Below, piece after piece: positions 3,001 through 63,786 of a stretch of DNA of 64,000 bases (positions are counted from its first letter, which is position 1; the number at the start of each line of letters is the position of its first letter). Source of the DNA: Branchiostoma floridae. Its lineage: Eukaryota > Chordata > Leptocardii > Amphioxiformes > Branchiostomatidae. Below the pieces are notes generated by a model. The model was not told the origin of the DNA and did no database searches. It was given only the letters and a program-made list of their open reading frames with translations. A program made the position numbers and the translations under genes. The stretch spans positions 21,028,187-21,092,186 of the forward strand of contig NC_049987.1 of NCBI RefSeq assembly GCF_000003815.2, read 5' to 3'.

Positions 3001-4312
3001 CGTGTCACAATCTTGTACCTCCTCATCTGGCCCAACACAGTCTGCCCCGCCGTGAGCTGGTGCAGGATTGGTGCAGCTTCGGTCCCGAGTCTGCGTCCCG
3101 CTTCCACACGTCACGCTACAGCCGGACCATGGACTCCAGTCGGACCATTCACCGTCAACTACAGAAAACAGATTCCAGATAGGTTTCAGCAAATTTCGGG
3201 CCTACATTTTAGGAGGACTACGAAGGAAACATCTAATACAACTACATAGGGACATATTTGACACTTTCATACAACGATTATGTTCTCTCAACTGAAGGAG
3301 TGGAGGTGTTATTTTTCTGGGGATGACTTTGCAAAAGATGATACAGGTATAGCAATATAATTTAGACTTACCTGGACAGGGCACCCCCGTGTCACAATCT
3401 TGTACCTCCTCATCTGGCCCAACACAGTCTGTCCCGCCGTGAGCTGGTGCAGGATTGGTGCAGCTTCGGTCCCGAGTCTCCGTCCCGTTTCCACACGTCA
3501 CGCTACAGCCGGACCATGGACTCCAGTCGGACCATTCACCGTCAACTACAGAAAACAGATTCCAGTTAAGTTTCAGCAAATTTCGGGCCCACAGTTTACA
3601 AAGAGTACTAAGGAAACATTTAATACAATGCAAATACATACTTATACGGACGTATTTGTCACTTTAAAAGAACGATTATGTTCTCCTATCTGAAGGAATG
3701 GAGGTGTTACTTTTCTGGGGATGACTTTTCAAAACTTAATACAGGTAGAGCATTAGACTTACCTGGACAGGGCACCCCCGTATCACAATCTTGTACCTCC
3801 TCATCTGGTCCAACACAGTCTGCCCCGCCGTGAGCTGGTGCAGGATTGGTACAGCTTCGGTCCCGAGTCTGCGTCCCGCTTCCACACGTCACGCTGCAGC
3901 CGGACCATGGGCCCCAGTCGGACCAACCGCCATCAACTGTATACAAAACAGACTCTACTTAGTCTAGATCACAATTTGAATAAATATTTTAATGGGGGGG
4001 AAAGCACTATCAGGGACATTTTACACTTGTTTCCTTGAAGACAAAAAAAACGGGAGAAACTTTGGAGTAGATTGTTTCTTTTTGATAAAGTATGTTTTAG
4101 AATCGCAGGTGTGACCAAAGACTGATACTTACCTGGACAGGGCACCCCCGTGTCACAATCTTGTACAAGTGCTTCCTGATCTGGTCCAACACAGTCTGCC
4201 CCGCCGTGAGCTGGTGCAGGATTGGTGCAGCTTCGGTCCCGAGTCTCCGTCCCGATTCCACACGTCACGCTACAGCCGGACCATGGGCCCCAGTCGGACC
4301 AACCGCCATCAA
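5..4312 (-). CDS. TSP1-repeat exon array of a secreted modular protein (partial)
   Basis: Ten working exons each encode one thrombospondin type 1 repeat. In reading order they are 4133-4312, 3763-3936, 3372-3545, 2985-3158, 2594-2767, 2237-2410, 1318-1491, 931-1104, 533-706 and 5-178. All are 174 bases except the first (180, two extra codons). Each starts after an AG and ends at a GTAA/GTAAG donor, in phase 1 at both ends, so any exon can be gained or lost without breaking the frame. Each carries the core [15 protein letters not shown] and six cysteines. TSP1 repeats act outside the cell and bind glycosaminoglycans or other matrix partners; the tryptophans are often C-mannosylated (family knowledge). 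The copies are nearly identical and even their introns are alike. The gene continues past the left edge, so its C-terminus and identity are unknown. Joining it to the Sushi exons at 6251-7732 is inference from strand, order and phase. Confidence 0.85.
1575..2065 (-). mobile_element. LINE 3' fragment in a TSP1 intron
   Basis: On the minus strand the intron between two TSP1 exons (1318-1491 and 2237-2410) encodes the tail of a non-LTR retrotransposon reverse transcriptase: a run like [20 protein letters not shown] followed by [26 protein letters not shown] and SRGRP, the usual order after the RT core in CR1/Jockey-type elements. The reading then shifts frame near 1730 and continues as [18 protein letters not shown]. 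Only the last few hundred bases are present, as expected for a 5'-truncated insertion. The clade is not certain. Confidence 0.6.
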
Positions 4313-4512
4313 CTGAATACAAAACAGGTTCTAGTTAGTCTAGATCAAAATTTGAATAAATCTTGTAATGGGAGGGGGGCACTATCAGGGACATTTTACA
4401 CTTGTTTCCTTGAGGACAAAAAGGAACAACGGGAGAAACGTTTGAGTAGATTGTTCCTTTTTGATGAAGTATGTTTTAGAATCACAGGTGTGACCAAAGG
4501 ACTGATACTTAC

Positions 4513-4686
4513 CTGGACAGGGCACCCCCGTGTCACAGACTTGTACCTCCTCATCTGGCCCAACACAGTCTGCCCCGCCGTGAGCTGGTGCAGGATTGGT
4601 GCAGCTTCGGTCCCGAGTCTCCGTCCCGATTCCACACGTCACGCTACAGCTGGACCATGGGCCCCAGTCGGACCAACCGCCATCAA
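4513..4686 (-). pseudogene. Eleventh TSP1 exon copy without an acceptor
   Basis: This copy has the full TSP1 coding sequence and a good donor (plus-strand CTTAC at 4508-4512). At its 5' edge the sequence departs from the family directly after the first codons: instead of the CTGTAG or similar acceptor there is GGAGAACATG, with an in-frame stop just beyond. As it stands splicing would have to skip it and join the Sushi exon to 4133-4312, which phase allows. It may be a duplication breakpoint, or an assembly join between collapsed repeats. Confidence 0.55.
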
Positions 4687-4934
4687 CATGTTCTCCTTAT
4701 GTATAGATAAAAGCATGGGAATTTTATTTATTGAACATCAGGCATGTGGTCTTTTTATAGGAACAGACTTAGAAGCTTGTAGTTTGGCAATAGCAATGAA
4801 ACTTGAAATGTTCTGATCGTTTGCATTTTCTTTGGTTTTATGAAACGTCTGGAAAGGTCTTATACAAAACATTATAATAAACCTCACTTCTATCTGTCGG
4901 GAAATTTTAGAATCTACTTATGTTAACTCCAAAT

Positions 4935-23405: not shown

Positions 23406-26400
23406 TTAACTACTGTTGTCCATGTCAGACTGGAGTCTGGCCAGCCCTGTTAGCCGAGCGTCCCGCCACCTCCTCCGCTCCGTCAGGGCCTCGGGGGTTG
23501 AGGGGGTCTGATTGGTCATGGCGGCATCGACCGTTTCCAGCGCCGGGCCGCTGAAGTCTGGGATGGGGCCGAACGTGGAGAGCACCCTCTGCATGGTCTC
23601 ACCATAACGTTCTACATAGCTCTTCATCCCTGTTGGAGATAAACAGTCAAATGAGTGTACATTGAAAAAGACAAACAAAATTTACTGGGGAACAAACTCC
23701 AACATTGTCATGTAGAAATGTTACAGATCTCATCCTCTAAAGACTAGAATTGGATGATAGAACTCAGCTGTGTTTATGCTTATTGTTGTAATTTTTCGAC
23801 CTGTGCTTAGTTATCAACAATTTTGTGACAATGACTACACTAGAAGACACTGCAAGCTGACTTACGATGACTGCTGTGCATGCCCATTCTGCATCTTACA
23901 TGTTGATTTGCAGATGTTGAGAAGCAGATTTTTAAAAACCTGTTCTATGGAGTGATAACTGTCACGTATTGTTGCACAATTTTAGAACGAGTAAGACTTT
24001 GTGGGCTTGGAAACAGACATTACATCAAGTTGCATACACAGATGTCATCCACTAAACTAGGAATCTGTAGCTTTATCCCACCTTCAGCGTTCAGGTGCAT
24101 GACCTCCAGTGGCCCCATGAAGGCGTACCTCCGGCCCAAACCGGCCGACATCACGGTGTCCACATCCTCTGGGGACATCACACCATCCTGGGAAGCGGGA
24201 AAGGATGAATACTGTATATGAAACTGCCCTAAAAGACCACTCTGGTCTACTCTTAATGCTTTTGTTAAGTACATATATAAAAAAAATACCTAAGGGACAA
24301 CCAAAAAGTGGTCACATTGGCCAGGTGATCCTTATGTAAAGGTGGTCACATGTAAGTACAGGTTTGATTTTATTAACGTGCAAAACATTTCAAGACCCTA
24401 GTCATTTCTGAAACATCCACCTGGATATCTAGTTCCTATATCACACCAATCCAAAAGTTCTGGACATAACTTCATATTGTGTATTGTAAGTTTGTCCTGT
24501 ATGTTAGTTCTTAAAGCTAAAGGCACAACTCACCATACATGCAAATACGTGCTGTCTACGTGCCGAAAAGTGGGCAATCTTTTGGGATCCGTAAGTGGTA
24601 AGTACCGCGTCCGTACGAACGGATTTTGGAGTCGAACTTTACGTGCTGGCAAAACTTTGTGAGTGCCATCGGGCTGCGGATTCGCCCCACGTATGTGCCA
24701 GTACGGGCAACGCGCCTGCCTTTTACAGCCTGAACGTTTTCAGAAATACGTGGCGGATGTGGCCTCCCAAAAAAACGTACAAATTGCACGTATGGCAGGT
24801 TGTGCCCTTAGCTTTAAAAAATATCATATGTTCTGAGCTAAGATACAAACATTGTTCTAGGAAAAGATGATTTTTCAAATACCTGTATGAGTCTCCATGA
24901 CTCTGCAATAATGGCGTACTGTATCCTGTTCAGAGCGAACCCGTCCACCTCTTTCTTCAGGCTGACTGGTGATTGGCCGATCTCCTTCATCAGAGCGCGG
25001 GTACGGTCCATGATGCTCTGCTCCGTCTCGGGGTGGGGGATGAGCTCCACCAGGGGGACGTAGTACGGAGGGTTCACCTGGGTGGAGATGGAAGACAAGG
25101 TAAACATAACGTCAACCTCAGACTCAGGACAAAGCATGATGCAAATTGGGTTTGCTATTTTAAAGGCTGATCATCCAGACTCTTCTCAATAAGTGTGTCC
25201 AGATCTTTTACAGGCAGAGGTTTGACGCCTTGACCTCTCCTCTACATGGGGCTGCTCAGGATTTTCTTCCCTATCCAAAAGGTTGATGTGACTCTTATCC
25301 AGTCCTGCCCAAATCTGGACTTGACACCAGGCCTACCAAATTCAAAACAGTAGCAGAGAGTGCAGAAAACTACAAGTACAACAGGGCTATTTTTCTCTGT
25401 ACCATCCAGGCATGGTACATTTACATAGAATTAAATATACATGCACACAGAGCATGCCATGGTGTTATACCACATTTTTCTTTAGGCATTGACGCACTGA
25501 TATACAGATACAGTACACTCAAATACCAAGAACATAAACATAAAGGGCATGTGTGCCTGTTTTGCCAGTGTCTTACAATTGACAGGCAGCTGCAGAAACA
25601 GAGACACTTACCGGATGTGCCACGATGCACTGTTTGACATGTTTGAGCCCAGAGAAGATCTTGGAGGGCAGGATACAGGACGTGGAGCTCGACAGAACCA
25701 TGTTGTCATCGGCAACCGCATCCAGCTGGCTGAAAATCTTCTTCTTCAGCTCCAGGTTCTCTGGGACACACTCCTGATGGGGAAAAGGATGATGTATAGA
25801 AAATTAGTAGGCTGAAACAGAAACTGTTTCTCATTCAACATTTGAATGTATACAGGAACTTCATAGTAGCCTGGATGCAAGCCTGGATGCAAGCCTTGTT
25901 AGCTTTGGTCTCAAGGAGCAATCATAGACTTAAGCTACCAAAGCTAGCATCCAACCAGGCTTTCTTTAAATTTGTAGAACAAAGAAAATACTTCTGCACA
26001 ACTACAGGGTGTTTGGCCCAGAGCCCAGACAGAGGACATGGGTTCAAACCCTGTCATGCTAATGATCTTGTGCTCTTGGGAAATGCACTTTACACCACTT
26101 TCCTCACTTCACCCAGGTGTAAAAATGGGTACCTAACTTTGGTTGGGGAGGTAGAAGGCGCTGAGAGGGAAGGTCGGGCGCATCTCCCATGCAAATGTGA
26201 CCTAGGTACAGTGGATAACAACTCAATGCCCCTAAGGACTCAAAAGGCTATGGGACTACCTTCATCATTACCTTCTTACAGTGAGGGTAGTATGTATGAC
26301 AGTGAGTGAGAGCCTCTCACTGTGAGGGTGTTAAGTTTGGACCTTGATAAAACCCAGATTATGGTTCACCACATACCTGGACATGCAGCGCCCCCTGACA

Positions 26401-28694: not shown

Positions 28695-31600
28695 TCAGTT
28701 GTTTGAGTCCATTTCAGACCGGAGAGTTGCCAGTGCCGCCAGCCGTGCGTCCCTCCACCGCCTCCGCTCCGTCAGGGCTTCTGGAGTGGCGGGAGTCCGC
28801 CTGCACATGGCGGCATCGATGCCTGCCAGCGTCGGGCCGCCGAAGTCTGGGACGGGACCGAAAGTAGACAGGACACGCTGTATGCTCTCTCCATACCGAT
28901 CCACGGCGCTCTTCATACCTGGAACAACAAGTCAAGGATCAAAGATACCATACCGAAGCGAAATATTTAGAATTTCTTATTCTCATCATTAGCATCATCA
29001 TGCTTTTTTTTGGTGAATTTCTTATTCTAAAGGGGGTTTTACAGGACGTTAAATGCAGCTCCCAAGTTTGAGGAGAGAGACACTTCGGGAACATAAAAGA
29101 ACCCACCACGCTTATCATAAAGACTTTGGACCCGACCCAAGCCGACCCTACCGTCCTGCCAGTCTCCACTTACACAAATGCAAATCCCAACATACCTGCA
29201 TAGATTGTCATATCTCACCTTCAGAATTCAGCTGCATGACTTCTAATGGCCCCATGAAGGCGTACCTCCGACCCAGCCCTGCTGACATCAGCGTGTCCAC
29301 ATCTTCAGGAGACAACACTCCGTCCTGACAAAACAAAAAATCATCGTCCTCAGTTTATATGGTCACACTGTTAGCGACCTTCGGCCGAATTTGTAAATCA
29401 CTAGAAGTCGCTGACCTTCAAAGTCGCTAGATAATGGAGAGTATTTTTCGCATGAAAAAACACCAGGTCACATTGGACAATTGCAAGGTCCGGTGACTAG
29501 CTAACATCGGCTTATTCTTAAAGATCCTGAAATTATGTCCTTTTGAGTTCACAGACCCGTCGACCGAACTATTTTTTCTACTGTGTCGGATGATACGGTT
29601 TAAATGATACGAAAGTTGCCCAAACATAATGACGATGAGCACACAACCAACCATAGAACATACAAAAGACCAACAGCAAACTTACTGATCAAGTTTATGG
29701 GATAATTCAAAGACGAAGATAACAAGTAGAAGTTTCGGGTCCTTATGGTACCTGTATGAGTCTCCATGACTCTGCAATAATCGCAAACTGAATCCTGTTC
29801 AGAGCAAACCCGTCCACCTCTTTCTTCAGGCTGACTGGTGATTGGCCGATCTCCTTCATCAGAGTGCGGGTGCGGTCCATGATGCTCTGCTCCGTCTGGG
29901 GGTGGGGGATGAGCTCCACCAGCGGGACGTAGTACGGAGGGTTCACCTGGGGGTACAAATTATCTGATTGGGCAACAGTGTGGCTAAACTGGTGTCCAGT
30001 ATGTCGTGGATCGGGTTCGCTTTCGTCGGGAATTTCAGCGGCCCTGGTAAACTATAACACTCGGTAGTGATTTATCTCGATTGGAGCGGAGGACTTATTA
30101 ATTCCAACCGTGTAAAACTACTACCAATGATGTTATAGGGAAATATAACCTCCTTGTTAATTACTAGTGGCATAGTTTACCCGGGTGTCAAAGAACTCAT
30201 ATAGCCTCAAAAAGAGCCCATCCTATTCACGATAGGGTAGAATATGGCAAGGCTCGTAAAGGCAACCGCGTAAGGCAGAATACATTGCAGAAAGAGCTAA
30301 TGATGCGTTGGTTAGTTAACCGGTTCAGTTCGGTATTTTTGGTTGGTCAGTTAGTTGGTTGGTTAGTTGGTTTGCAATGGAACTCCAAATTCTCAATAGA
30401 TATCTTAGAATGACTTTCAAAGCATCAAACAAAACCAAAATATGCAAAACGAGACTGGCACCTACTGGATGTGCCACGATGCACTGTTTGACATGTTTGA
30501 GTCCAGAGAAGATCTTGGAGGGCAGGATACAGGAGGTGGAGCTGGACAGAATCATGTTGTCGTCGGCAACCGCATCCAGCTGGCTGAAAATCTTCTTCTT
30601 CAGCTCCAGGTTCTCGGGGACACACTCCTGTAAGGACGTTTATTTCGGTCATTCTAGTTTTTTTATAATAGAATAAAACTGGCCGGTCAACCAAATGGCG
30701 TAGCCAATCACCCCCAGTCACAACCCACATTAAAACAGGCCCGTCAGTAGTATAGTAGGGACAGGATGAGTCCCATTATTCAGGCGCAATCAGGCGCAGG
30801 TCAGAGGTTATAGTCCGATGGCAAAATCTAGGGAATTAGGTATTTTCTGAGCTCTGGGTAGGGGTGAAACAGGGGTCAAGTCGACCTGTTGACCCACCAA
30901 GGTAACAAGACAAGGCACCCCCCAAGACACCCCCCCCCCCAAGACCCCCCTCCAATCATGAGGGACATGCCCTTATTTGGTTGTAAGTCTCTACGCCGGT
31001 ATACCTTACATTTTTCTTCATTTTATCATTTTTTTTTGGTCAACTAAGGTTCAGGCTGACCTTCTTACCCACCAAGGTTATTCTTACATCCCCACCCCCC
31101 TACAGCGGGCCCACCCCCTCTTGTGAGACAAGCCCTTATTTGCCCTGGTCGCAAGGCTTACCTTACTTTTTCTTTATTTTTATCTATTTTGATCGTTAAG
31201 GTTAGTTTTACGTACGAACATGTACCATTTATATGTACATGCAGTGAATCATTGCTTTGGAGTAGCTATACGTGTTGCTCCGGAGTAAAAAAACAAACAA
31301 CTGCTCTGGAGTAAAAACACTGCTCCGGAGTAAGTGAGTAAGACAGTATATTTGTTGTAAGTAAGTATATTTGTTGTAAGTATGTATATTTGTCATGTAC
31401 GTACGAACATATACCGTCTATACGTACATGCAGTGAAACATTGCTTTGGAGTAGCGAAACGTGTTGCTCCGGAGTAAAAACACTGCTCCGGAGTAAAAAT
31501 ATTGCTCCGGAGTATGCTCCGGAGTAAATGAGTAAGTATATTTGTTGTAATAAGATAGACAGTATATTTGCCATGTACGTACGAACATATACCATCTATA

Positions 31601-34600
31601 TGTACATGCAGTGAATCATTGCTTTGGAGTAACTATACGTGTTGCTCCGGAGTAAAATAAACTGCTCCGGAGTAAAAAATAAACTGCTCCGGAGTAAAAT
31701 AAACTGCTCCGGAGTAAAATAAACTGCTCCGGAGTAAAATAAAACTGCTTCGGAGTATGCTCCGGAGTAAATGAGTAAGTATTTTTGTTGTAAGTAACTA
31801 TATTTATCATGTACGTACGAACATATACCATCTATATATACATGAAGTGAAACATTGCTTTGGAGTAGCTATACGTGTTGCTCCGGAGTAAAATAAAACT
31901 GCTCCGGAGTAAAATAAACTGCTCCGGAGTAAAATAAAACTGCTCCGGAGTAAAATAAACTGCTCCGGAGTAAAATAAAACTGCTCCGGAGTAAAATAAA
32001 ACTGCTCCGGAGTAAATGAGTAAGTATATTTGTTATAGGTAAGCATATTTGTCATGTACGTACGAACATATGCCATCTATTTGTACATGCAGGAAATCAT
32101 TGCTTTGTAGTAGCCTTGTACGTGCCTGTTATGTAGGCATATATCAACACAACACAAAAGACACTTGTGTACGGTGATCCTGTTTCTTAACACTTTACTA
32201 TCACTTGACGGCGATCACAATTGTATTAAGGAATTCATAAACAATGCATATGTCGTCTTATATGTCAGAAATAGTATCACATTAGGAAAGAAAAAATGTA
32301 CTGCAAGCGATATGGCGACCTCACATTACTTCAGGACGAGGTAACCATATTTTTTCATCAATGTCTGTTCTGGGACCCAGTTCTTGCTGTGTACAATCTC
32401 ATTACTGTAACGAGGCAACGCAGCGAACTCTATTAGATAAAACTTTTTGCCAGCGCGCCTCGTCTGTTTGATGACACGTTGAGGAACATCGCCTGGCTGG
32501 TGAGGTAGTGCGATGGACCAGTCTCGATAGAGTGTCCACTCCTCCTCGTCACCGCTGTGGTAGCCGCTGTCGTAGCCGGTACGGTCACTTTCATCAGATG
32601 AAACCGGCCCTGAGGACACATCTGTCCCTGTATCACTCTCGGAACCACTTTGGTCGCTGTCGGTTTCTTCTGTGGAGTCTCCCTGCTCGGAGCCCATCAC
32701 AGATTCGGCGTCTGAGACGCTTTCTTCATCTTGTGACACCATCGAATTCCCATCTTCGGAACCAACCGTGTCCGTATCGTGTTCAGACGACACGTCGGAG
32801 TCGTCGAAAACATCGCGCTCCCGGTAAGACCCCGTCTCGGCATCAACGACGACTTCTCCCGAGGCACCATCTGACTCGTCTCGGTGTTTTCTTTCCAGAT
32901 GACGCTCGAGGTTGAACGCACGATCAAATTCCCGATCACAAATCTCGCATACGTTTATCTCGTATACATCATGCATCTACGTATGCCATAACTGCATACG
33001 TGGTATTGAAATATTGTTGTCATGAATGAAACGTAGATGCATCCAGGGTGTATACGAGATAAACGTACGATCCCTTAAAAACTTTCATGGGCGACAAATA
33101 TATGTGTGCACATTAATACCTTATCATTTCCCTTCTGTCCACCGAACAAAAAGTATGCCTCATGTCTGCGAGATTTGTGATCGGGAATTTGATCGTGCGT
33201 TCAACCTCGAGCGTGGTGGGGATGTAAGAATAACCTTGGTGGGTAAGAAGGTCAGCCTGAACCTTAGTTGAACAAAAAAAAATGATAAAATGAAGAAAAA
33301 TGTAAGGTATACCGGCGTAGAGACTTACAACCAAATAAGGGCATGTCCCTCATGATTGGAGGGGGGTCTTGGGGGGGGGGGTGTCTTGGGGGGTGCCTTG
33401 TCTTGTTACCTTGGTGGGTCAACAGGTCGACTTGACCCCTGTTTCACCCCTACCCAGAGCTCAGAAAATACCTAATTCCCTAGATTTTGCCATCGGACTA
33501 TAACCTCTGACCTGCGCCTGATTGCGCCTGAATAAAGGGACTCATCCTGTCCCTACTATACTACTCCCGTCCATTGTGTGTATATATAAAGGTGCAGTGC
33601 CTTCTGATATTAGCCTGGGTACCATCCCCCGTAGAAATAGGATGGTACCCAGGCTATGCTGATATGCAAAGAATAATTACATATTTTGCGGTACGCTGGG
33701 CATTCAGACCCCACTAAACAACCAAAATTGATTATTAACTGTAGGCATTACTTATACATATATTTACTTACTTACTTTCCTAAGAACTAAGGTGTATATT
33801 CTGCAACTTTAATTCTATGGGTTCTTTATCCGATCAGCCAAACCATTTGGGGCGGCGTTTCCTACTAAGCAACCCCTCTTTTCACAGTCCAGGTTTGACA
33901 GTACATGTATCTGGTAACGAAATCAAAGTGACCAGTTTTATTAGCAGCATGGGACTTAATCTCCAACCAGATCCACGGTGCGTAATGTATAATATCAAAC
34001 TTATTATCGTGCCCGTTTGACTCCCTTAGCCGGCTACACTCCTTGGCCAGCTTTGATACTATCATATGGCACCGTAGGATCTGATTGGAGATTTCATGGG
34101 ACTATCACAGGCTAGCCCGTACCTGGACGTGCAGCGCCCCCTGACAGGCAGCTTTAAAATCGCTGCAGCCAGAAATCAGACCAAACTGCTCATCTGCCGT
34201 CAGGCTGCCACGCAGAAGGCCGGCTTTCTGGAAGACGAAACACATTTTTTTATGCAGGTTGCCACCAGTGGATTGGATATTGCTAGCCGTAGATTACAAT
34301 TGGCTGCAAAAAAAGTAAGATAATTTGCATCATTTATTGAGGTTGGAATCTCTTAAGCAGACACTACGTGTCGTTTTGTATATGTTTTTTTTCTATCATG
34401 TACATCAGTTCTCGGTACAGTACTTGGTTTGATTGTGGGATGTCCACTCCACAACTGACATGGTATCAAGAAAAAGTACATTATAACAACCCCCACCCCA
34501 CTGCAAAAAGACCGACTATTCAAGTTGCATGCGCACGTTTCGTTGATATCTGCTATCCCTCTGATTATTAAACTAAGTTAGCAGCTTTTCCCTTTTATCA

Positions 34601-52200: not shown

Positions 52201-55200
52201 CCGTTCACACTTACGCCACATCTTCAGAAAAGACACTGGAGCCGCATGTTGCCCATTTAGGAACTTTATTTGAACCGACACACAACAAACATGTTTCGCC
52301 GTGTGGCTTCCTCAGTGTTATGGGCTCGAATCATGCCTATTGTGTTGTGACTGCAAGAAAATAATCATAGTAGACAGGTTGCCCTTATAAACTATGCTAT
52401 TGGGATTCTCAATACTTGGGTTAAGGCCCGCAACAAAAAGACATGGTTGACTTTTTGTCAAATCTACCTCAGTACTGGATAAAGTAGAGATAACTTAACA
52501 AAACTCTTGTTAATTATGCAAGAGCCCTTAAATAAAAGACCATAGCAAGAAAACTAATATGAACCTAACTACCACACTCAGGGCTCAAAATACCACCTTC
52601 ATACTAGTATGCAGCTTAGTGCAGGTAATATTTGTCTGGTGCAGGTAATTTTCAATGTTACCTGCACCAGTGCAGGGATGCAGAAAAACTACATGTATGT
52701 CTGTTTGACCTGTCGTACCTGGTGTGTGCGTGAGAGCCTGGATCAGCTGACTGACAGGTTTAGGTGTGAGACGGTTTGACTTGCGGCGCATCTGGGGGTC
52801 CATGGTTCTGGACAGTCTCCTTTCCTCACTCATGGGGTTCAGGGCCTTCAGAGGGGTGCCAGCTGGGGAATAACAGAAAGCAGACACATCAAAACACTGT
52901 CAACTTGTGAAAGTTCACCTGTGTTGGTATAGTACTGAGTTAAAACTAGTCAAAATAATGAAAGCATCACATATTTAACTGTGTTGCTGCCATCTTCATC
53001 AGAATTCAAGTTGCCGACATGCTATATGTTGTAATTTCATGTAGAAACTTTGAGAGCTGTATCTCTATCTTCCTGGCCATATAGTGCTACAATTCAATAA
53101 CTAAAACTGGATGGGAGAAAATCCCACTATTGAAACATCATAACATAAGGCAAAGCTTTGTCCTATTTATTGGCCACATTCTTGTAACAATCTAGTTACA
53201 TGTTCAATTACAGAATAGCACAACACAAATATGCAGTGGAACATGGCAACTTTACAGTCTTTGGCAGAATTTGAATGACTTCTTTTGAATCTGGAATTTC
53301 TCATCTATTTCACATGACATTATATACCCTCTGACCTCTACAGTGGAACTGTGGTGTCTTGGCTGGGCTGTTGACCTTGAAGAACCCTCCATCGAAGGTC
53401 ACGGTGTCCTCTGTGACCTTTGTCTCCTCCTTCTGTTCCGCCTGCTCCTTGTTCGCCATCATGGCCGCCTTCATGGCTGCTTTAGCCTCCATCAGCCTCT
53501 TCCTGGCAGCTTCCCGGTCCTTACTGTCCTTACTGGCAGGCTTCTTGACTGGTTTCTAGATTGGCATAACAGACATGATACTTAAACATATCAGGGCTCG
53601 AAATACTTTTTTCTGCATGCCTGCACTGATGCAGGTAACATTTAAAATTACCTACACCAGACAAATTTTACCTGCACCACTCTGAATTTAGGATCATAAT
53701 AAATTGTTCAGGAACCATTGCTATTTTTCCTATACTTTATAGGTGGTAACCACGGCCATTACAAATATGCACTTCCGCATTCTTTGGTGTGCGCCTGCGC
53801 AGTAGCGACCACCAATCCAAGATGGCGGCGGGTCATGACGACGTAAATATTTACTCGCGTATCTAGGGAGGTCTTACGGCTTGTTGATTGGTAATAAAGC
53901 TGTCAATCATGCCCAAATAAGCTGTGTGCTTTGTTTTTAAGCCCCGCCCACTGCAATCACTAATTCCCGCCGGCAATTTCCCGCTCAAATTACATAAACA
54001 TTATCGTCCCGTCGTGACAGGGAATATTGCCGGCATTACTTCTCCACCTTGATTTACGGTATCTTTTAGTACAATTTGCACCTGTTTTCCCAATTAACCT
54101 GCTGTACACTTATTTTTATCTCCAAACTACATCAGTTTCTTGTTTCTTTCCAACTGTCTGTTGCTCGTATATCTTTTTTTCTCACAAATTACGACACCGG
54201 TATATCGACCAACTTCGAGTCCCATTTACGTCAATGTTGTGACATACGATACGGATATAGTCATCAGGATGCCATTTGTCTAGCTAACAGTTGATTTATA
54301 ACTGCCATCAGAAAGCTTCTTTATCCCCCCTTACCTTGTTTCAACTAATTAGATCATTTCTAGTAGTTATAATCAATAATAATTTGTATAGGAATACATG
54401 GGATAATGTCATCTGGGGGGGGCATTGACTCGCACATTGAAAACATCAATAGACTGTGTAGATTCTGTGGGGATTTAAACTTAACAAAGGCTGAAAAGGA
54501 TAAGAAGCTTTCTGCCCTAAATTGCGAACAGTACGCTCCAAAAATCAAAGACATTTGGGGAATCGAAATTGCTCGAGACAGACCATACCTGCATCCCAAG
54601 TTCTTCTGTCGAAAGTGCAGATCCCGGCTGTACAACCCACCCAAATTTGCCAGGGCAAAAAGAATCTCTTGGTACCCGCACACCTTTGGCAATGATTGTA
54701 TGCACTGTGAAAAAGTCCAATCACTTACCAGGGGGGGACGTCGTCCAATGAATAAGTCTTCTGGGAGACCAAAAAAGACTAAGACGACAGGTCAAACAGC
54801 TGGGATTTGTGAACCTTTAATGCACAGCACATCACAGCGCACAACAGCTACACAACAACTACACCTTTCTCCGGCATGTACCCCTGTCACGACTAGCTAC
54901 ACCACAGCAGTGGAACATCCAACACTGCAAATATATGGTCCTGCTGTCCCATGCAGTCTGGCAAGTGCTGCCACTGCTATACTCGCACCTCTTGCCAGCA
55001 CAGTGCACCCACGGTTTGGAGTTGTGTACTGTCCCGTACCCCCCGTCAGCACAGTGCAGCCACAGCCTGGAGTTGCGTACTGTCCCGTACCCCCCGTCAG
55101 CACAGTGCAGCCACAGCCTGGAGTTGCGTACTGTCCCGTACCTCCCGTCAGCACAGTGCAGCCACAGCCTGGAGTTGCGTACTGTCCCGTACCCCCCGTC

Positions 55201-58200
55201 AGCACAGTGCAGCCACAGCCTGGAGTTGCGTACTGTCCCGTACCTCCTGCCAGCACAGTGCAGCCACAGCCTGGAGTTGCATACTGTCCCGTACCTCCTG
55301 CCAGCACAGTGCAGCCACAGCCTGGAGTTGCGTACTGTCCCGTACCTCCCGTCAGCACAGTGCAGCCACAGCCTGGAGTTGCGTACTGTCCCGTACCTCC
55401 CGTCAGCACAGTGCAGCCACAGCCTGGAGTTGCGTACTGTCCCGTACCTCCCGCCAGCACAGTGCAGCCACAGTCTGGAGTTGCGTACTGTCCCGTACCT
55501 CCTGCCAGCACAGTACACCCTCAGTCTGGAGTCGCGTGCTGTCCTGTACCTCCTGCCAGCACAGTGCAGCCACAGCCTGGAGTCGCGTGCTGTCCCGTAC
55601 CTCCTGCTGGTAGCGGCTCCGTTACAGCAGACAAGGTGACCATTGGCCTAAAAGAAAAAGGCCCACTAAACGCAGACCAGCGACTCGCACTTTACGCCTT
55701 GGTCAAGCGCCAAACGGACAACAATACACTTCTTGTGCCAACTGGAGCCAAGGTAAGGTCACTAAGGAACTACATTTGTATTGATCTGTATTTTCCAACA
55801 TGGAACAACCCTGACTGTTCAGCAGACACAAGCCTTTGAATATAATGTATCAATCTTCTTGGTTTAGAGACAAAAATAGTTTAATAAGCTTGTTAAATAT
55901 GTAACATCCCAAGAGCATGTAATCTGGGCAACCAAAAATAACAATAGTAGACACACAGCCATGTCCAGTTCTCTCCATTATCCTGCATATATAAAACAGT
56001 ATTTCTTGTACTGCTTGTATTTCTAAAACAAGTAGTATATATTATTCATTAAACTTGTATGACCGGCCTTAAGCATAACACAGTAGTATGAAACGTCCTT
56101 CCTTTTTATTCTACAGCCACTCCACTTTGTTCAAGTTCCAACATGCCAAAAGAAGTCGTGTGATGCCGCAGCATCAACGGTACAAAAGAGGGCGAAGCTG
56201 GTGAGCAACATCAGGGAACAGATCAGCGGGGGTGCTGAAGAGCAGCAGATGGCGGCCGAGCTGCGCCGCCTACCCAGGAGTCAGCTGAGCCGGCTTCTGC
56301 AGGAGGGCCGCTTCGCACAGGTCCGCATCCCAGATGGCCACCTGCTGGGACTAAAAACAGGACTGAATCTTAACTGGAGCCAATGCAGAGACTTGAGGAG
56401 GTACTATTTTATTTCCTTGAGTAAAACTGTTTCCATCACACATGGCACAGATGTTAAGAATTAATCTGTATCTTTGCAGTTGGCACTAAGCATGGAGTCA
56501 TAACAGAGCCTGAGAAAAATTGCAAAAGGCCTTGGCAAACATAATGCAATAACTCTATACATAGACAACTACAAAGTATATATAGATGTATTAACGTGTA
56601 ACATTAGTATCGTGGGTTGTCCAAAATATTGACGTTTGCTCAATATACTTCCCGTTGTATAGCTGTACTAACACCTTTTACACCTTTCCCCTTGAACAGA
56701 GATTGGGAAAGAATTATTTACCACTATTTACCATTTTTTTCACAGATGGATGAAGGACTACAACATTGCTGTAGAGAGTGAAAGGACCTCAAGAAACATT
56801 GCCTCCGAGCTCCTCTCGGCAACGGACGTGATGGCTGAACAACTGCCGTTCACGACGAAGGACGAGGAGGGAGGCAAGAGGGTGGAGCCGAAACCCTGCG
56901 CTTACCTGGTCTCCCTGGTCTCAGCCATGCATGACTACCTGGAGAGGAGCAAACAAGCTGGGTAAGTTTGGTTCCGTTCACTAGGTATCATAGTGTAATA
57001 TGACAGGACCTTGTGTACCTTAATATACAAACATGGACAGCTATGTTCTACTCATATTAAAATTAAGGTTTACTCTGTTTCACAGGAAACTGACATGGCA
57101 CGGGGGGAATATCCCGGAGGACGAGATATGGGTAAAGATTGGAGGGGACCACGGTGGGCCATCGTTCAAGATGGCCTTCCAACCACTCAACGTGCTACAT
57201 CCCAACTCCAAGACAAATACCTCAGTCTTTTGCCTCTTTGAGTCAAAGGATAACAGGGAGAACATAACGACAGCGCTGGGGAGGTTTAAGGATGATGTGA
57301 AAACGCTGCAGGAGGAAATGTGGAGGTATGTTGATAATTTTTTCTCTTGAGACATAATAATCAATTGTACTTACTGTTGACATGATTGCCAAGAAAGGTC
57401 CTACTGTGGTACATCTCTCATGTTGAAGGTGCTAAGTGCAGACTCAAGCTGACTTGCTAAGGGTCCATTTCTGGGCATGAGTCATGCCTTTTGTTTCTCT
57501 GTATAAACAGATAATAGTGACTGTCAGTATATGTAACCCTATAACTACTGTATCACTCATTTCATTCCAGAAGTAAGGATGGACAGACATACAGGATAAA
57601 GCTGTTCATGGCCGGGGATTACGCCTTCCTGTCAACCATATATGGCATCTCAGGCGCAGCTGGTGAGTCTTGATCAAATTCTGTATTAATCAGCCTAAAT
57701 GAAACAAGCCATTTTTTCAGATAACACAAGAACAGTACACAGCCAAATGGATTAAGTATTCTTGTCTTTTCTATACCAGGTACTTTCCCATGTCTATGGT
57801 GCAAAGTCACCAAGGCTGGGATTGATGACATAGAGAACAGGCGGCTGAGGACCCCTGACAGGACACTGGCCAACATGGCGGAGAACCTGAGGGCCTTCCT
57901 GCAGGAAGGGAGAGGGAGTGTAAAGAAAGCCCAAGAGTACTTCAATGTCATTGCAGCCCCTCTGTTTGAGATCCCTCTTGAGCAGGTGAACAACATTAGC
58001 AAAAACAAAATACATAAATATTGCTGCATGCCTCAGCCTTCTAATACCCACATCAAATTTTAAACAATTGCAAATGTCCTATTAGTAACAGTTGAGACTG
58101 ATCTGTAAAAAGATTAATGAACTTCAAAATAAATACTTATTTGCCTACAATTTTTAATGATTCTTCCAGTTATAATTTCATTGATGGTAGTATGCAATCT

Positions 58201-61200
58201 TAGTCTGACAACACATACATTTGGAGCCTTTACATTGACAGGTCATGAGCCCAAGGGCTACCCACACCTCTTTATAAACAAGAAATGTCTTAATGTTTCT
58301 TATTCAAACTATATCATTTTCTACAATGCTTCTTACTAGTATGTAAACTATCACTTTCAGGCAATTGTGCCAGGGCTGCATATAAGCCTTGGCGTTTTCA
58401 AGCGGCTTTACGACGAGTTCGAGAGAGCGGTTCAAGAGTTAGACCTCAAGATCCAGGCCTACCTTCACAGTTTGGTCCTGGCACAGGAGGCTGACAGGGA
58501 AGACGTCAAGAAAGACCAGCACCTTAAGCCGTTTGAGCAATTCATCAACGTCATTGACGATGCTCAAGTGTTCCAGGTCCAGGCGGATGAGTTGGATGAC
58601 CTCGTTGAGGAACAGGAAAACCAGCTGGCCTTCCTAGCCTACGAAAACCAAGATGTGGACGACGAGTTAGCAGAAGCTGTGTTCAATGAAGCGACAGCTA
58701 TGGTTTCTGAGCTCGTCCAGAGAAGAGACACTCTGGTAAGTACACAACAACAACAAAACTTAACAGTATGTACATAAATGTGTGACTTTTCTCCATCAAT
58801 ATAATGTTACAATAACAAGGACAATGTAGATAAGAAAATATACTCCTAACATTATCTCCTTGTCTTTCAAACATAAGACCTTAAGAGTATTTCCTAGTAC
58901 AGTACAAAAACTCAAGTTTGTAATATGTCACTTTTCACTGGCTGGCTCCCAGATCATACCCCCAACCCAGGATCAATCCTAAAGTGGGTTTAGTTTTCTG
59001 TGACCTACTGACATCTACTACTATTCATTCATACAGAGAAAGAAAGCATCAGACATCCTGACCAAGGCCTCAGTGAAACCTGGAAAAGGGCCGTTGGCGA
59101 GCCAGTTGGAACCTGTCATGAAGAGCTTCAAAGTGCACCGGGAGGCATACCAAGGCAGGACTTTTGTTGGCAATCATGTCAACAAGATGCTAAATGTAAG
59201 TACATCTGTTTGTATACCTACCTACCTACCTTTTCCAGTGACCTCCAGGTCATTGTGGACAAGATAGACATGAAGATGTAGAGTTCAGACTTCTCTCCAG
59301 GCACTTCTTTGTCTGTGTTCAGTTCAGGCCCGTACCCGCAGAAGTCGCAGGGGCTTCACGACAGACAGCAGCAGTGATCCATGTCTATCATTCTCTCAGT
59401 CCCGTAGCTAGTGATAGCCGTCAGGGCAGTCTATCATGCACAAGAAATATAAAAACACATCAGCTACTGTATACTTTTCATTGTACCCTATATGACTTGT
59501 TTTCTGTGTGCATGTATGTTCTCAGGACAAACCAATTGAGCATCTTACATCCAGTGTGGTGAAGACCATGGGTGAAATCTGTGATGGGAACGACTTCCCC
59601 CTGTCCATTATCCGAATGGGGAAGGAGGTGGCTGAGAGACACGAGAAACGTCTGAAGATGTTTGCAAAATGCCACAAAGGATATGCACACGGCGGCAAGA
59701 AGGAGGACAAAGACCTAGACCAGCTAGGTAACATTTCCACCTTGTTCATACACAAAATTTTGGTACCAGTCAGTTGGGCCCCACTAGCTAAATAGAACAG
59801 AAACAATCAATCATGGCTGGATCTGACCCTGAGCAACACCTGCCTTACATGTATGTTTGATCACCTAGGGGGTATGATTATAGTTGGGAAATAATTTTAA
59901 AAAATATATAACTCTATACACAGTGACAAATGGAGGCTTTTAACACATATTTACAATCAAACAATCTATTTATGAATACTTTTTCCTTTCTGTTCTTTTA
60001 GACCTCGACATAAAGTCATTTATGTCAGAGTACAGGAAAGACTCAAGATGTGTAAGCCTGAAGATGCACTTACTTGAGGAGCATGTGGTCCCCTGTATTC
60101 GCCGCTGGGGCTTCGGCCTCGGCTTCCTGGCGGAACAGGGGATTGAAGAGGTCCATGCCCAGTTCAACAGACTTGCACAGTCAACCCGTTCCATTGCTGA
60201 CCCTGTCGCTCGACTCAAGTCTACCCTTAAGTCCCATCTCATCAAGGTCAGCCCGGACCACACGGGCAAGGTTCCTGCACCTGTTAAGAGAAAGAAGACT
60301 GTGTGACTTTGTTAAGCAAGTGAACTTAATAAGTCATTAGTTGTTTGTGCTGATATGTTGTTCAAATTTTTGACTTCAAACTGTTTTCATGATCTCCCAT
60401 ATGGACAGTTTGTCATTGCTGTAAAAGCAAATTCTAGACTCTACGATAGCATCATGCCTAACTATGAGATATGAAATAAACATGATGTAAAGTAGACTTA
60501 CTGGTATTATACAAGGCGTTCCTATATATAGCACTTGTATGATGTTATCCAGTTTAATTCTAAGGACTAATATTGAACTAGAGTAACTTATATAAAGTAT
60601 GTAGCTTGTACCTAAAATCACACAAGCCTGCAGGGTTCCAGTCATTCTTCCCCTTCATGTCTGTGGTAAAGGAGGACCAGCTACCTTGTAAGTTGTAGTT
60701 GTACCTGCAGAGAGATTTCACAGAAACAGACGTTTAGATCCAACATGTATCAGTACTCAAATTTACTGGTCTTTAAAAATGTCTAAGTTAACTTGTGAGC
60801 ATTTTGCTTCGCTGTCCTCCCACGTGTAAATGCAACTTGAAAGAAAATGTTATATATACTTATTTATTTATTTATTTATTATTAAAATGTTATATAAAAT
60901 CTAAAAGAACAAAGCTAGGCAATTCTTGCAATGTTCCATGAAACAGTAGGAAATCTATGTTGAGCCTTTTAAGGATAAAATAATTAGAATATCTTTGTGA
61001 TGTAAATATCAGTGCGCATGTAGTTCTTGTTGTCAATAAACAAGGTAACATAATGTTCATGATGTGTACGTCTGCCAACATTTCATCAAGACTAAACAGT
61101 TCAAGAGAGCTCATAGTCATACATGTACACTTGAGTACCATACTAGTAAGTTATACCTTATTATTTGGAAGACCTCAGGGTATTAAATCTAGCTATTCTA

Positions 61201-63786
61201 TGTGTCTGAAAAAAGTATACTGCTGTATTCTTACCGACCTGACACCATTGTCTCGAACAGAGAACCATCGTGTAGATCTAGAACTAGAACCTTCTACACA
61301 GTCTATACCGTTACCATTTTGATTATGATACAAACTACAGAAAATAGGGCGCCTGTCATGTAAACAAAAGTGTAAACAAAGGGCTTCCGCATACTCTGAT
61401 GTAGTATTTATAATAAAATCGTCAATTAATCCCCACGAAATTAAGATTACGTCACGTGGAGAGTTATACAAATTAGTAATTACGTAAAAAAAAAGCTTAG
61501 TTCGCACCTCTTTCCCAGTGATATCCAGCGTCGTAGAAAAAATGATAGACGAGGTTTTCTCTCTACCAAAACACGTGCAAACAGGTCGATTTCACGTTTC
61601 AGGAGGTCTCATTCGCCGGAAAATTTGGAAAAGGTAACCAAACACGCCTTGAACTTACCCTTCGTTCCCCGCTGCGCCAAAATCTCCGTTGTACGCTCCG
61701 TCGCTGCTGTCTGTCCACGGATTGCGATAATTTAGGCGGACTACCATGAACCACTCGCCACACAATGCCTACAAACATGGCTACCTTCCTCTCTAATCTT
61801 AGCCCGTCATGTGACCGGATTGGCGAGTTATGATTGGTGAAAGCTGGGGTGCGCGGAACTATGGCAGGCTGTGCTGCAGTACCGGCGTGGCCGCAGGGGG
61901 CGCACGGCGCCAAATTCAAATTAAACTAAACCGCTGATGCGAAACAGCCGTGTAACATTCAATGCAGCTAAAAACAATTCATACACACCTACATCATAGG
62001 GCATTTATGTATGAAACCCAGAACATGGACCAGTGCAGGTTAGGTGCAGGTAGACACCAAAAATACCTGCACAGCTCCAATTTTACCTGCACTAACCTGC
62101 ATATGCAGCTGGTATTTCAAGCCCTGCATATGGTCCAGATGGTGGTGAATTTTGGTTCAAAGTACAGGGGTTTGATTCCTGCTGGTCACTAGCTCATTCC
62201 CTTAAAAAAGGTTCAACTCATTCAACAATTGAATACTACATGTAATTCTTCGTAAGATTGGAAGACATTCCTGTTACCTTGACAATCTTCTTCTTGATCT
62301 TGACTGGTTTCTTGACCTCCTCTGGCTCCCAGTTCCTGGCCTTCAACTTCTCAAGGTCATCAAACTTCTTGTCAACATCCTCAACCTAAAAACATGGAAC
62401 ACTTGTTATAGAGACCACAGAAAAAGTTCTGTTCACTGGACTCTTTTCCATGTTAAACAAAACTAAAATTTACAATAGTACAAGTCTTTTTTAGGTTCAT
62501 TGTATATTCCAAAAATCAATTGAAACTTTACAGATTTGACTTGCTCAGATGAGTCTCTTTACACAGCCACTGCTTTATTCCCACCAATGTTTTGCTGACC
62601 GTCTGTCACCTGCCTCAGTGCAATTCTGACTGATTCACGTTTGTTGCCTTAAGCCTATCAGAGAAGTCTGCCTGTCGCTGTCAGAAAACTTAAAAATCTT
62701 CCACCCAACGTCTATTTGGAGATTACACAGCAGGTAAATTCAGTCCGATCGTCAAGTAAAGATTGTAAGTGACCCGGAAGTAGATCCAAACTGACCTGCA
62801 AGTAGACTATGACTGCCCTGGAAGTAGAACCTAACTGACCCCAAAGTACACCATCACTGGACTGCAAGTAGAGGTTGTAATTGACCCAGAAGTACATCCT
62901 GACTGACCGGCAAGTACAGGTTGTAACTGACCCGGAAGTAGACAGTGACTGACCTGGAAGTAGACCATGTCCCAGAATCCCTGCAGGTCCTGACAGGTTG
63001 TCTCCTTCTCGCCGGTGTTGAACTCACAGTTGTCCACCAGCCCGGAGAACTGTTTGAACCGCTGGTCCATCAGCAGCTGCGCCTGCCCGATCGTGGTCCG
63101 GATCTGACCTTGGACTAGAGATAATCACAGCAGAACAGTTAAACCCTCATCATCATTCATCCTCCTTCAGTCCTCTAACATCAAGAAACTGTAAGCTGTC
63201 AGTCCTTTAGAAATATAGCTTGATGTCCGGATCTGACCTTGGACCAGCTGCTAATAATCCACATTGTTGTGGGATAAGCAGTACTGGAGATGATGATGAT
63301 GATGATGGACTAAAGATAATCACAGCAGAACAGTCTTCTAACACCACAATAGTGTGCACTGAAACAGAGCTCTTTAGAAATATGCCTGATGTTGCTTCCC
63401 CTTAATATATTTCCAAAGCATATTTTGCATGTGTTGCAGTTTCATTGTGACAGTCACTGCTATCTATGAATACAAGTTACAACCTTGCAAAGTAATTTTG
63501 AAACTTTCCATACAAAAAGAATGCAGAAAAATTTGCAGAGAGAAATGTCTTTACAAATAGCTACTGACATTATTAAAAGAAGTTGACCATATGGTTTGTT
63601 AGTTGGAGTAATTGTTATCATAATGAGAGAAAATTGATTCAGACAACAGAGTCACAAAATCAGACCAACCTTCCTCTGAGAGTCCGTCCTGTGTGACTGT
63701 GTCCTCCCACTTGGTGCACAGCCCTGTCAGGTGTTCTGCCTGGGACACCAGCAGCCGCCGGAAGTACGGCACGTCATGTGCCTCTG
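49284..63786 (-). CDS. DLGAP5: DLGAP5 / HURP, C-terminal part (5' end outside window)
   Basis: Eleven exons in reading order: 63670-63786, 62954-63114, 62278-62385, 53336-53555, 52719-52862, 51713-52113, 50996-51272, 50494-50636, 49899-50055, 49574-49658, 49284-49443; all phases fit, about 657 residues. The first three carry the GKAP domain (PYFRRLLVSQAEHLTGLC, QRFKQFSGLVDNCEF, TTCQDLQGFWDMVYFQVEDV). Next come a coiled basic stretch (KRLMEAKAAMKAAMMANK) and TFDGGFFKVNSPAKTP, which matches FDAGFFRVESPVK of human DLGAP5. The tail is disordered, rich in TP/SP sites and ends with SPVRRSMRLESAG. The human protein is a spindle factor that binds microtubules near chromosomes and is regulated by Aurora A and Ran-importin. 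Its N-terminal microtubule-binding part lies off the right edge. Intron 53556-62277 hosts an opposite-strand RAG1-like gene. Confidence 0.9.
51727..51975 (-). repeat. 40-residue tandem repeat inside a DLGAP5 exon
   Basis: Two in-frame units of 120 bases encode VVVGTPLKLHSPIGEGSEFT ... LEDGTVAITTE and VVVGTPVKLHSPIGEGSEFT ... LEDGTVPITTE. Each carries a TP and an SP site. The units are similar at DNA level, so the duplication is young. Confidence 0.9.
52579..52690. repeat. CAGGGCTCRAAATAC repeat, copy 1
   Basis: It starts CAGGGCTCAAAATACC and holds several CCTGCAC / GTGCAGGTAA words. Related copies lie at about 53592-53690 (same direction) and 62030-62130 (opposite direction, ends GGTATTTCAAGCCCTGC). 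The terminus recalls hAT-type ends; it is probably a small non-autonomous DNA transposon. Confidence 0.5.
53592..53690. repeat. CAGGGCTCGAAATAC repeat, copy 2
   Basis: CAGGGCTCGAAATACTTTTT followed by GCATGCCTGCACTGATGCAG and TTACCTGCACCACTC. It lies just after DLGAP5 exon 53336-53555, at the left side of the intron that hosts the RAG1-like gene. Confidence 0.5.
53765..53850 (+). promoter_or_regulatory. Likely promoter of the RAG1-like gene
   Basis: GCGCCTGCGCAGT matches an NRF1-type site and CCAAGATGGCGGCGG a YY1-type initiator site, both common at TATA-less start sites. The block lies 560 bases before the coding start at 54406, on the same strand; a GACGAC-GTAAAT donor at about 53841 and a TATAG acceptor at about 54390 would allow a 5' non-coding exon. 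This is inference. Confidence 0.4.
54406..60306 (+). CDS. RAG1-like protein: RAG1 N-terminal zinc region fused to DDE transposase region
   Basis: Ten exons: 54406-55752, 56117-56400, 56746-56961, 57086-57325, 57571-57662, 57780-57985, 58361-58735, 59037-59195, 59526-59727 and 60002-60306; phases agree throughout, 1141 residues, no break. Residues 16-101 match the RAG1 N-terminal zinc region: C18-x2-C21, H63-P-x3-C68-x2-C71, W89-Y-P-H92-T and C98-x2-C101 (compare LCRICG, IHPTEFCHNC, WHPHTPSCDIC in vertebrate RAG1). Residues 197-400 are a 17-residue tandem repeat. The C-terminal half shows a RAG/Transib/CMC-type core: D637 in IGGDHGGPS, D712 in MAGDYAFLS, C731-x2-C734, H1063-x4-H1068 and E1089 (or E1085) in LAEQGIEEVH. 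Vertebrate RAG1 uses D600, D708, C727-x2-C730, H937-x4-H942 and E962. Molluscan N-RAG-TP and Chapaev-type transposases are the nearest known kin I can name. Residue assignments are by eye. Confidence 0.85.
54994..55605 (+). repeat. Coding minisatellite, 12 x 51 bases
   Basis: Twelve in-frame copies of a 17-residue unit (consensus VSTVQPQPGVAYCPVPP). The inner copies are almost identical at DNA level, the first and last two more diverged. Because 51 is divisible by three and the unit lacks stops, several other frames on both strands are open too; these are shadows. Confidence 0.95.
60475..60480 (+). terminator. Poly(A) signal of the RAG1-like gene
   Basis: AATAAA 169 bases after the stop codon at 60306, in the right orientation. 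Confidence 0.5.
60612..61747 (-). CDS. Possible short gene converging on the RAG1-like gene
   Basis: Exon 61659-61747 starts at an ATG (MVVRLNYRNPWTDSSDG, then NEG) and ends at a GGGTAAGT-type donor in phase 2. Exon 60612-60704 begins after CTCTCTGCAG and continues in frame: GYNYNLQGSWSSFTTDMKG, DWNPAGLCDFR. A further donor (TTTTAG-GTACAAG) is possible; if unused, the frame reads ten more codons to a TAG (about 71 residues in all). I do not recognise the protein. Two clean splice sites, an open frame through both exons and a promoter-like region just upstream speak for a real gene, but it is short and has no known domain. Confidence 0.35.
61740..61880 (-). promoter_or_regulatory. CpG-rich promoter-like region with CCAAT boxes
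   Basis: Two ATTGG words (CCAAT on the minus strand) at about 61820 and 61834, CATGTGACC (E-box type) at about 61808, and CATGGCTACC near 61779, with raised CpG. It lies directly upstream of the minus-strand ATG at 61747. Confidence 0.35.
62030..62130. repeat. CAGGGCTTGAAATAC repeat, copy 3, inverted
   Basis: Reverse complement of copies 1 and 2: many CCTGCAC words, ending GCTGGTATTTCAAGCCCTGC. It lies near the right side of the same DLGAP5 intron. Confidence 0.5.
62764..62965 (-). repeat. Minisatellite of exon-end plus 5' splice-site copies
   Basis: Directly after the donor of DLGAP5 exon 62954-63114 (CTACTTCCAG then GTCAGTC) come about eight units of 22-26 bases that repeat the same exon end and donor: CTACTTCCGG-GTCAGTT, GTACTTGCCG-GTCAGTC, GTACTTCTGG-GTCAATT, CTACTTGCAG-TCCAGTG, GTACTTTGGG-GTCAGTT, CTACTTCCAG-GGCAGTC, CTACTTGCAG-GTCAGTT and CTACTTCCGG-GTCACTT. 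Several could serve as donors. Confidence 0.85.
63224..63250 (-). repeat. Duplicate of the DLGAP5 exon start in the upstream intron
   Basis: TCCGGATCTGACCTTGGAC (plus strand, about 63228-63246) repeats the first bases of exon 62954-63114 (63096-63114). Nearby GATAATCACAGCAGAACAGT at 63120 returns at 63315, and TTTAGAAATAT at 63207 returns at 63373, so a larger segment was duplicated and then diverged. Confidence 0.6.

Follow-up and report, generated by a model that had tools for sequence, protein, structure and literature searches.

The window analysed here is a 64,000-nt stretch of the Branchiostoma floridae genome (RefSeq assembly GCF_000003815.2, contig NC_049987.1, positions 21,028,187 to 21,092,186, forward strand), in which one intron of a minus-strand GKAP/DLGAP-family gene holds an 8.2-kb DNA element with a ten-exon, RAG1-like gene of its own. 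The host exons on either side match Pfam GKAP (E 2.1e-27), and the element lies antisense within their intron, which is 516 bp long once the element and one copy of its target-site duplication (TSD) are subtracted. We read the gene, with very little residual doubt, as the transposase of an intact, autonomous-looking Chapaev cut-and-paste transposon that was recently inserted into this DLGAP/GKAP-type intron (Table 1). Chapaev transposases are known relatives of RAG1, the enzyme behind the rearrangement of human antibody genes.

The open reading frame of the transposase comprises ten exons spliced in phase (54406-60306), giving 1141 codons with a single terminal stop, and every intron has a GT donor and an AG acceptor. 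A protein search returns LOC118422598, a B. floridae protein of 1141 aa that NCBI labels "uncharacterized," at 100% identity to residues 410-1110 and 1-135. The exon structure given in a preliminary description of this DNA is confirmed by the splice sites, the single stop, and this match, and the catalytic and zinc-binding residues named there are correctly placed in the translated protein; its GC-rich promoter does not hold up, as the 5′ region (~53700-54100) has only 42 to 48% G+C and 4 to 8 CpG per 100-bp bin. Pfam matches no RING finger in this transposase. Its relatives P0013 and P0016 do bear one (PF00097), and the RING finger of some relatives sits roughly where this protein has a 51-bp coding repeat instead.

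The ends of the element are marked by a second long copy on contig C10. When the window is compared with 30 kb of C10, bases 53751-61952 align with C10 19199794-19208040 as one long match; offset tandem-repeat matches aside, the only others at E ≤ 1e-10 are of 121 and 65 bp (window 26030-26179). The two copies have different TSDs (TAAC in the window, GTTA on C10). Outside the 51-bp repeat, they are separated by 4 substitutions and 3 indels of 1 to 3 bp over 7,578 bp; the repeat region, unlike the remaining element, varies in length (the C10 copy has 51 bp more) and is where most substitutions fall. Both proteins are open, are identical over their last 787 residues, and, outside the repeat, differ solely at residue 124 (K/E). 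We read this near-identity as the mark of a recent insertion and infer from it recent mobility of the window element.

A genome search with the left 176 bp of the element finds six places, including the two full copies. On C3, a copy flanked by N runs is 98.5% identical over element bases 28-1864. Two short derivatives have TSDs of their own, namely, a 240-bp form on C17 (CCTA) and a 130-bp form on C9 (CATC); in the latter, 42 bp of element sequence remain on the left and about 83 bp on the right. C9 has an additional weak match to the left 176 bp. Furthermore, a second Chapaev family is present in two copies that are 98% identical over 5.9 kb (TSDs TTTT and AGCT). The termini CACGGC...GCCGTG occur in four insertions of the window family and CACGTC...GACGTG in the two of the second family, and a 4-bp TSD flanks all six insertions with both ends located. 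The preliminary description had seen "no evident terminal repeats," whereas short CAC...GTG terminal repeats and a 4-bp TSD are present. At the exon level, the 513-Mb genome, in which the window lies on contig C9, contains 66 matches to transposase residues 402-840 (E ≤ 0.001). Two places on C165 (L012, 77001-87000, and L013, 175001-185000) each hold one 414-bp match, 93% identical, to element bases 2390-2803; the match belongs to a longer stretch repeated between the two places.

Table 1. The Chapaev element, its transposase gene, host intron, and second-family copies (window positions unless a contig is given)
Feature	Position	Strand	Remarks
Complete Chapaev-type DNA transposon, 8,202 bp	53751..61952	+	Alignment with C10 copy begins and ends at these bases; 4-bp TSD
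Left TSD TAAC	53747..53750
Right TSD TAAC	61953..61956
Left terminus 5′-CACGGC	53751..53770	+	Inverted match to right end: 6 bp exact, 13/20 bp
Right terminus GCCGTG-3′	61933..61952	-
Exact ProtoRAG TR5 copy (GCCATCTTG), inside AAGATGGCGGC	53818..53826	-	Element bases 68-76; reverse complement match
Chapa (RAG1-N-like, ZAD-like) zinc domain	54406..54765	+	Residues 1-120
Transposase exon 1	54406..55752	+	Chapa/RAG1-N domain and tandem repeat
In-frame 51-bp tandem repeat	54996..55604	+	11.9 copies, 17-aa units; inside exon 1
Transposase exon 2	56117..56400	+
Transposase exon 3	56746..56961	+
Transposase exon 4	57086..57325	+	Carries D637
Transposase exon 5	57571..57662	+	Carries D712
Transposase exon 6	57780..57985	+	Carries C731, C734
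Transposase exon 7	58361..58735	+	L801-H802 motif
Transposase exon 8	59037..59195	+
Transposase exon 9	59526..59727	+
Transposase exon 10	60002..60306	+	Carries H1063, H1068, E1085, E1089
Host intron containing the element	53556..62277	-	GT...AG borders; GKAP/DLGAP-family gene
Second Chapaev family, copy L016	C9:21217740-21224702		Carries N-terminal domain and core exons; same contig as the window, whose end is ~0.13 Mb away
Second Chapaev family, copy L017	C6:27504476-27511736		N-terminal domain and core exons

Pfam assigns residues 528-691 of the transposase to DUF1280 (PF06918; E 1.2e-12, 48.4 bits versus a cut-off of 25), and the RAG1 core family (PF12940) is not among the four families listed for the protein at E ≤ 10. 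A search for relatives (E ≤ 0.001, scoring the 7,993 candidates with the most shared words) yields 27 proteins including the window transposase, with lancelets, a sea star, a feather star, and Hydra among the sources. Within their alignment, D637, D712, C731, and C734 are invariant across all 27 rows (window protein counted), H802 and H1063 are kept in 26 (the remainder a gap), H1068 in 25 (two gaps), and E1085 and E1089 each in 24 (three gaps); the Chapaev C(2)C, LH, and H(4)H motifs are retained. A tree of these 27 rows unites the 12 lancelet rows in one supported group, and the sister of the window protein is a Branchiostoma belcheri protein with 65% identity. The predicted structure of the core is closest to RAG1 and then to BbRAGL; as modelled, the core has the RAG1/Transib fold, in agreement with the RAG-type core proposed in the preliminary description.

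The N-terminus was likewise rightly likened to the RAG1 zinc region. Residues 8-133 match Pfam RAG1_imp_bd (PF12560) at E 2.2e-5, with 24.6 bits slightly over the cut-off of 23.3, and a profile of 12 Chapa rows (11 of them Pfam-scanned, P0024 being left out) matches RAG1 chains at E 7.7e-9. This link emerged clearly with profiles; when the PDB was searched by sequence alone with residues 1-130, MBT proteins ranked on top (E 0.00095) and RAG1 reached E 0.065. A protein search with residues 1-135 returned only the self-match at E ≤ 1 among 65 candidates. Judged by the profile matches, the transposase N-terminus is homologous to the N-terminal region of RAG1. The same domain lies beside core exons at L014, at L015, and in both copies of the second family, so its combination with the core is not unusual in the B. 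floridae genome. The Chapaev-type gene with a Chapa domain at L014 (C19:7395001-7405000) is perhaps intact, with a stop in 0 of 10 tblastn segments.

These features can be set against the literature. Chapaev elements are recognised by 3- to 4-bp TSDs, by termini of CAC and GTG, and by three motifs, C(2)C, LH, and H(4)H (PMC4079192), and DUF1280 corresponds to Chapaev transposases and is grouped in one clade with RAG1 (PMC3985635). Kapitonov and Koonin describe the Chapa domain as an N-terminal part of RAG1, named for Chapaev transposons of lancelet and sea anemone; they place a RING finger after it in two subgroups, rank Chapaev as a clade within the Transib superfamily, and report lancelet Chapaev families as well as the combination of a RAG1-N domain with a DDE core in Chapaev transposases (PMC4411706). 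The window element agrees with the Chapaev superfamily (CMC/CMCT group; DUF1280) in its CAC...GTG termini, 4-bp TSD, and DDE residues, and its transposase agrees in the C(2)C, LH, and H(4)H motifs and the Chapa N-terminal domain. Since the hallmarks and the RAG1-N/core combination have already been described, the element is one more member of the known Chapaev superfamily and does not represent a kind of its own. Compared by description, N-RAG-TP of Aplysia has a RAG1 N-terminal-like region in common with the window transposase but consists of the RAG1-N-like part only (PMC8355894), whereas the window protein fuses it with a full DDE core. The canonical Transib transposase is a core alone, with 5-bp TSDs (PMC4411706); the window element adds a Chapa domain and has a TSD of 4 bp.

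The modelled core fold, nearest to RAG1 and then to BbRAGL, the N-terminal domain common to RAG1, and a 9-mer identical to TR5 close to the left end would all suit a true RAG-like (ProtoRAG/TransibSU) element instead of a Chapaev one. Such an assignment is nevertheless extremely unlikely. The TSD is 5 bp in ProtoRAG (PMC7481187) and in Transib (PMC4411706), as opposed to 4 bp here, and the CACGGC ends set the window element apart from ProtoRAG, TransibSU, and RAG1-RAG2: its seven left-terminal bases, CACGGCC, do not agree with the RAG-like heptamers CACTATG and CACAGTG (PMC7481187). Pfam, moreover, gives DUF1280 and not the RAG1 core family. A scan for a RAG2-like partner that covered 60307-61952 in six frames and the element as a whole in a single antisense frame, but not the remaining antisense frames, the introns, or the greater part of 53751-54405, gave no Pfam match at E ≤ 0.01.

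The TR5-identical 9-mer is contained in AAGATGGCGGC, which we take to be a YY1-type motif. Both full copies (whose left 120 bp are identical) and the 240-bp derivative have this 9-mer; the 130-bp derivative does not. The second family lacks the exact 9-mer in both copies, with an 8-base match ~3 kb inside, and none turned up in the 10-kb stretches L014, L015, and L018. ProtoRAG TR5 overlaps a YY1-binding motif and influences transcription and recombination (PMC7481187). A TR5/YY1 9-mer as a common requirement of lancelet RAG-fold transposons was considered and rejected, because one derivative and the second family are without it; these absences leave it as a candidate promoter site, possibly of the window Chapaev family only. 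The 9-mer occurs three times within the window, so that it could be there by chance or as an ordinary promoter site.

The preliminary description offered two alternatives, an active transposase gene of the RAG1 lineage or a domesticated copy, and leaned to the second. The first was close to right, in that the gene encodes the putative transposase of a complete Chapaev element, but the second, a RAG1-like host gene exapted from a transposase that has lost its mobility, is very unlikely, even though the ten-exon frame is uninterrupted and a place in a host intron allows passive retention. Domestication would predict a single copy with its ends lost; what we found are intact, TSD-flanked ends, short derivatives, and, on a different contig, another insertion that is nearly identical, along with a coding repeat that varies between copies and a closest protein from another lancelet (the B. 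belcheri match, among those found by the search) that is only 65% identical. It is because of the ends, the TSDs, and the copies that both domestication and the RAG-like (Transib) assignment are rejected. The two long copies could also represent a segmental duplication or an assembly artefact and not two insertions, as their mere 4 substitutions outside the repeat might suggest, but this is exceedingly improbable, given that similarity ends at the terminal base on both sides, that each copy has its own 4-bp duplication, and that, beyond the long match itself and offset repeat matches, only the 121- and 65-bp matches connect the window to 30 kb of C10 at E ≤ 1e-10.

Several points weigh against a recently inserted Chapaev transposon. 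The inverted terminal match is short: a de novo scan for inverted ends with a 4-bp TSD ranks 53751/61952 first of 6 candidates, tied with one other at 13/20, but 7 of 20 shuffles also reach 13/20 with a 4-bp TSD, so the scan proves nothing by itself. The element ends are absent from the longest 25 of 56 pairs in a general inverted-repeat search. Recent movement is deduced from copy identity, no insertion-free site was seen, the third large copy is interrupted by assembly gaps, and the structural model is less certain near the last acidic residue (block 1081-1090, mean predicted local distance difference test score of 79).

As a Chapaev transposase, the protein would dimerise and bind the two unlike ends of the element, cleaving beside 5′-CAC by means of D637, D712, and, in all likelihood, E1089; C731, C734, H1063, and H1068 would hold a structural zinc. 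RAG1 and Transib cut through hairpin formation, and, by likeness to them, cleavage would probably proceed via hairpins on the flanking DNA; the ends would then be joined to the target, with a 4-bp stagger between its strands. The locus provides a lancelet Chapaev element that is complete, looks undamaged, and has its ends mapped; lancelets are the group that also gave ProtoRAG. The two open copies and natural derivatives (down to 42 bp on the left and about 83 bp on the right) make a test of this mechanism feasible. It raises the questions of whether a RAG-fold transposase that has the RAG1 N-terminal domain, with RAG2 not found, cuts by hairpins and of what role the N-terminal domain plays in a RAG-fold Chapaev transposase.

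The Chapa domain probably serves in dimerisation or other protein-protein contacts. It has a C-x2-C ... C-x2-C layout in common with the ZAD (zf-AD) of insect zinc-finger proteins and, unlike ZAD, adds a W...C-x2-C segment beyond the ZAD-like part. Against two ZADs, the Chapa profile has an hhalign score of 33.0, which is equalled by 0 of 150 cysteine-fixed shuffles (mean 12.5, maximum 20.9); on this profile comparison, the similarity extends past the shared cysteines. The fold similarity between Chapa and ZAD is weak. The Pfam ZAD family (PF07776) matches 7 of 11 Chapa proteins at E ≤ 1, with a best score of 21.4 bits, and RAG1 101-215 at 17.8 bits, all under the cut-off of 28. RAG1 alone scores 16.2 against the two ZADs, matched by 13 of 150 shuffles; this test has little power, since the two true ZADs also score poorly one to one (16.4) and phmmer finds no match between them. 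The two-ZAD profile retrieves no RAG1 chain from the PDB at E ≤ 10, and a protein search seeded by one ZAD returns two short proteins only. Tentatively, and with doubt slightly ahead of confidence, we propose that RAG1 carries, before its core, a ZAD-type dimerisation/chromatin-docking module that was spread in animals by Chapaev-like transposons. If the ZAD link is true, the RAG1 N-terminal region would gain a fold family and a testable function.

Other features of the window include a short repeat (tgcaggtaa...) in the host gene near the insertion, present in both orientations (52608-52688, 53608-53687, and 62043-62103), and a large tandem array at 2113-4687 with a unit of ~357 to 391 bp. 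A separate 2.8-kb element at 30746-33565 has 351-bp inverted repeats that are 99.4% alike, ends AGTAGTATAG...CTATACTACT, and a 6-bp duplication, CCCGTC, at both flanks; the length of this duplication and the AGT...ACT ends are reminiscent of Polinton/Maverick elements. Three of its frames have no Pfam match at E ≤ 0.001, and a minus-strand open frame of 216 residues has one C2H2 zinc-finger match under the cut-off (E 0.00017).

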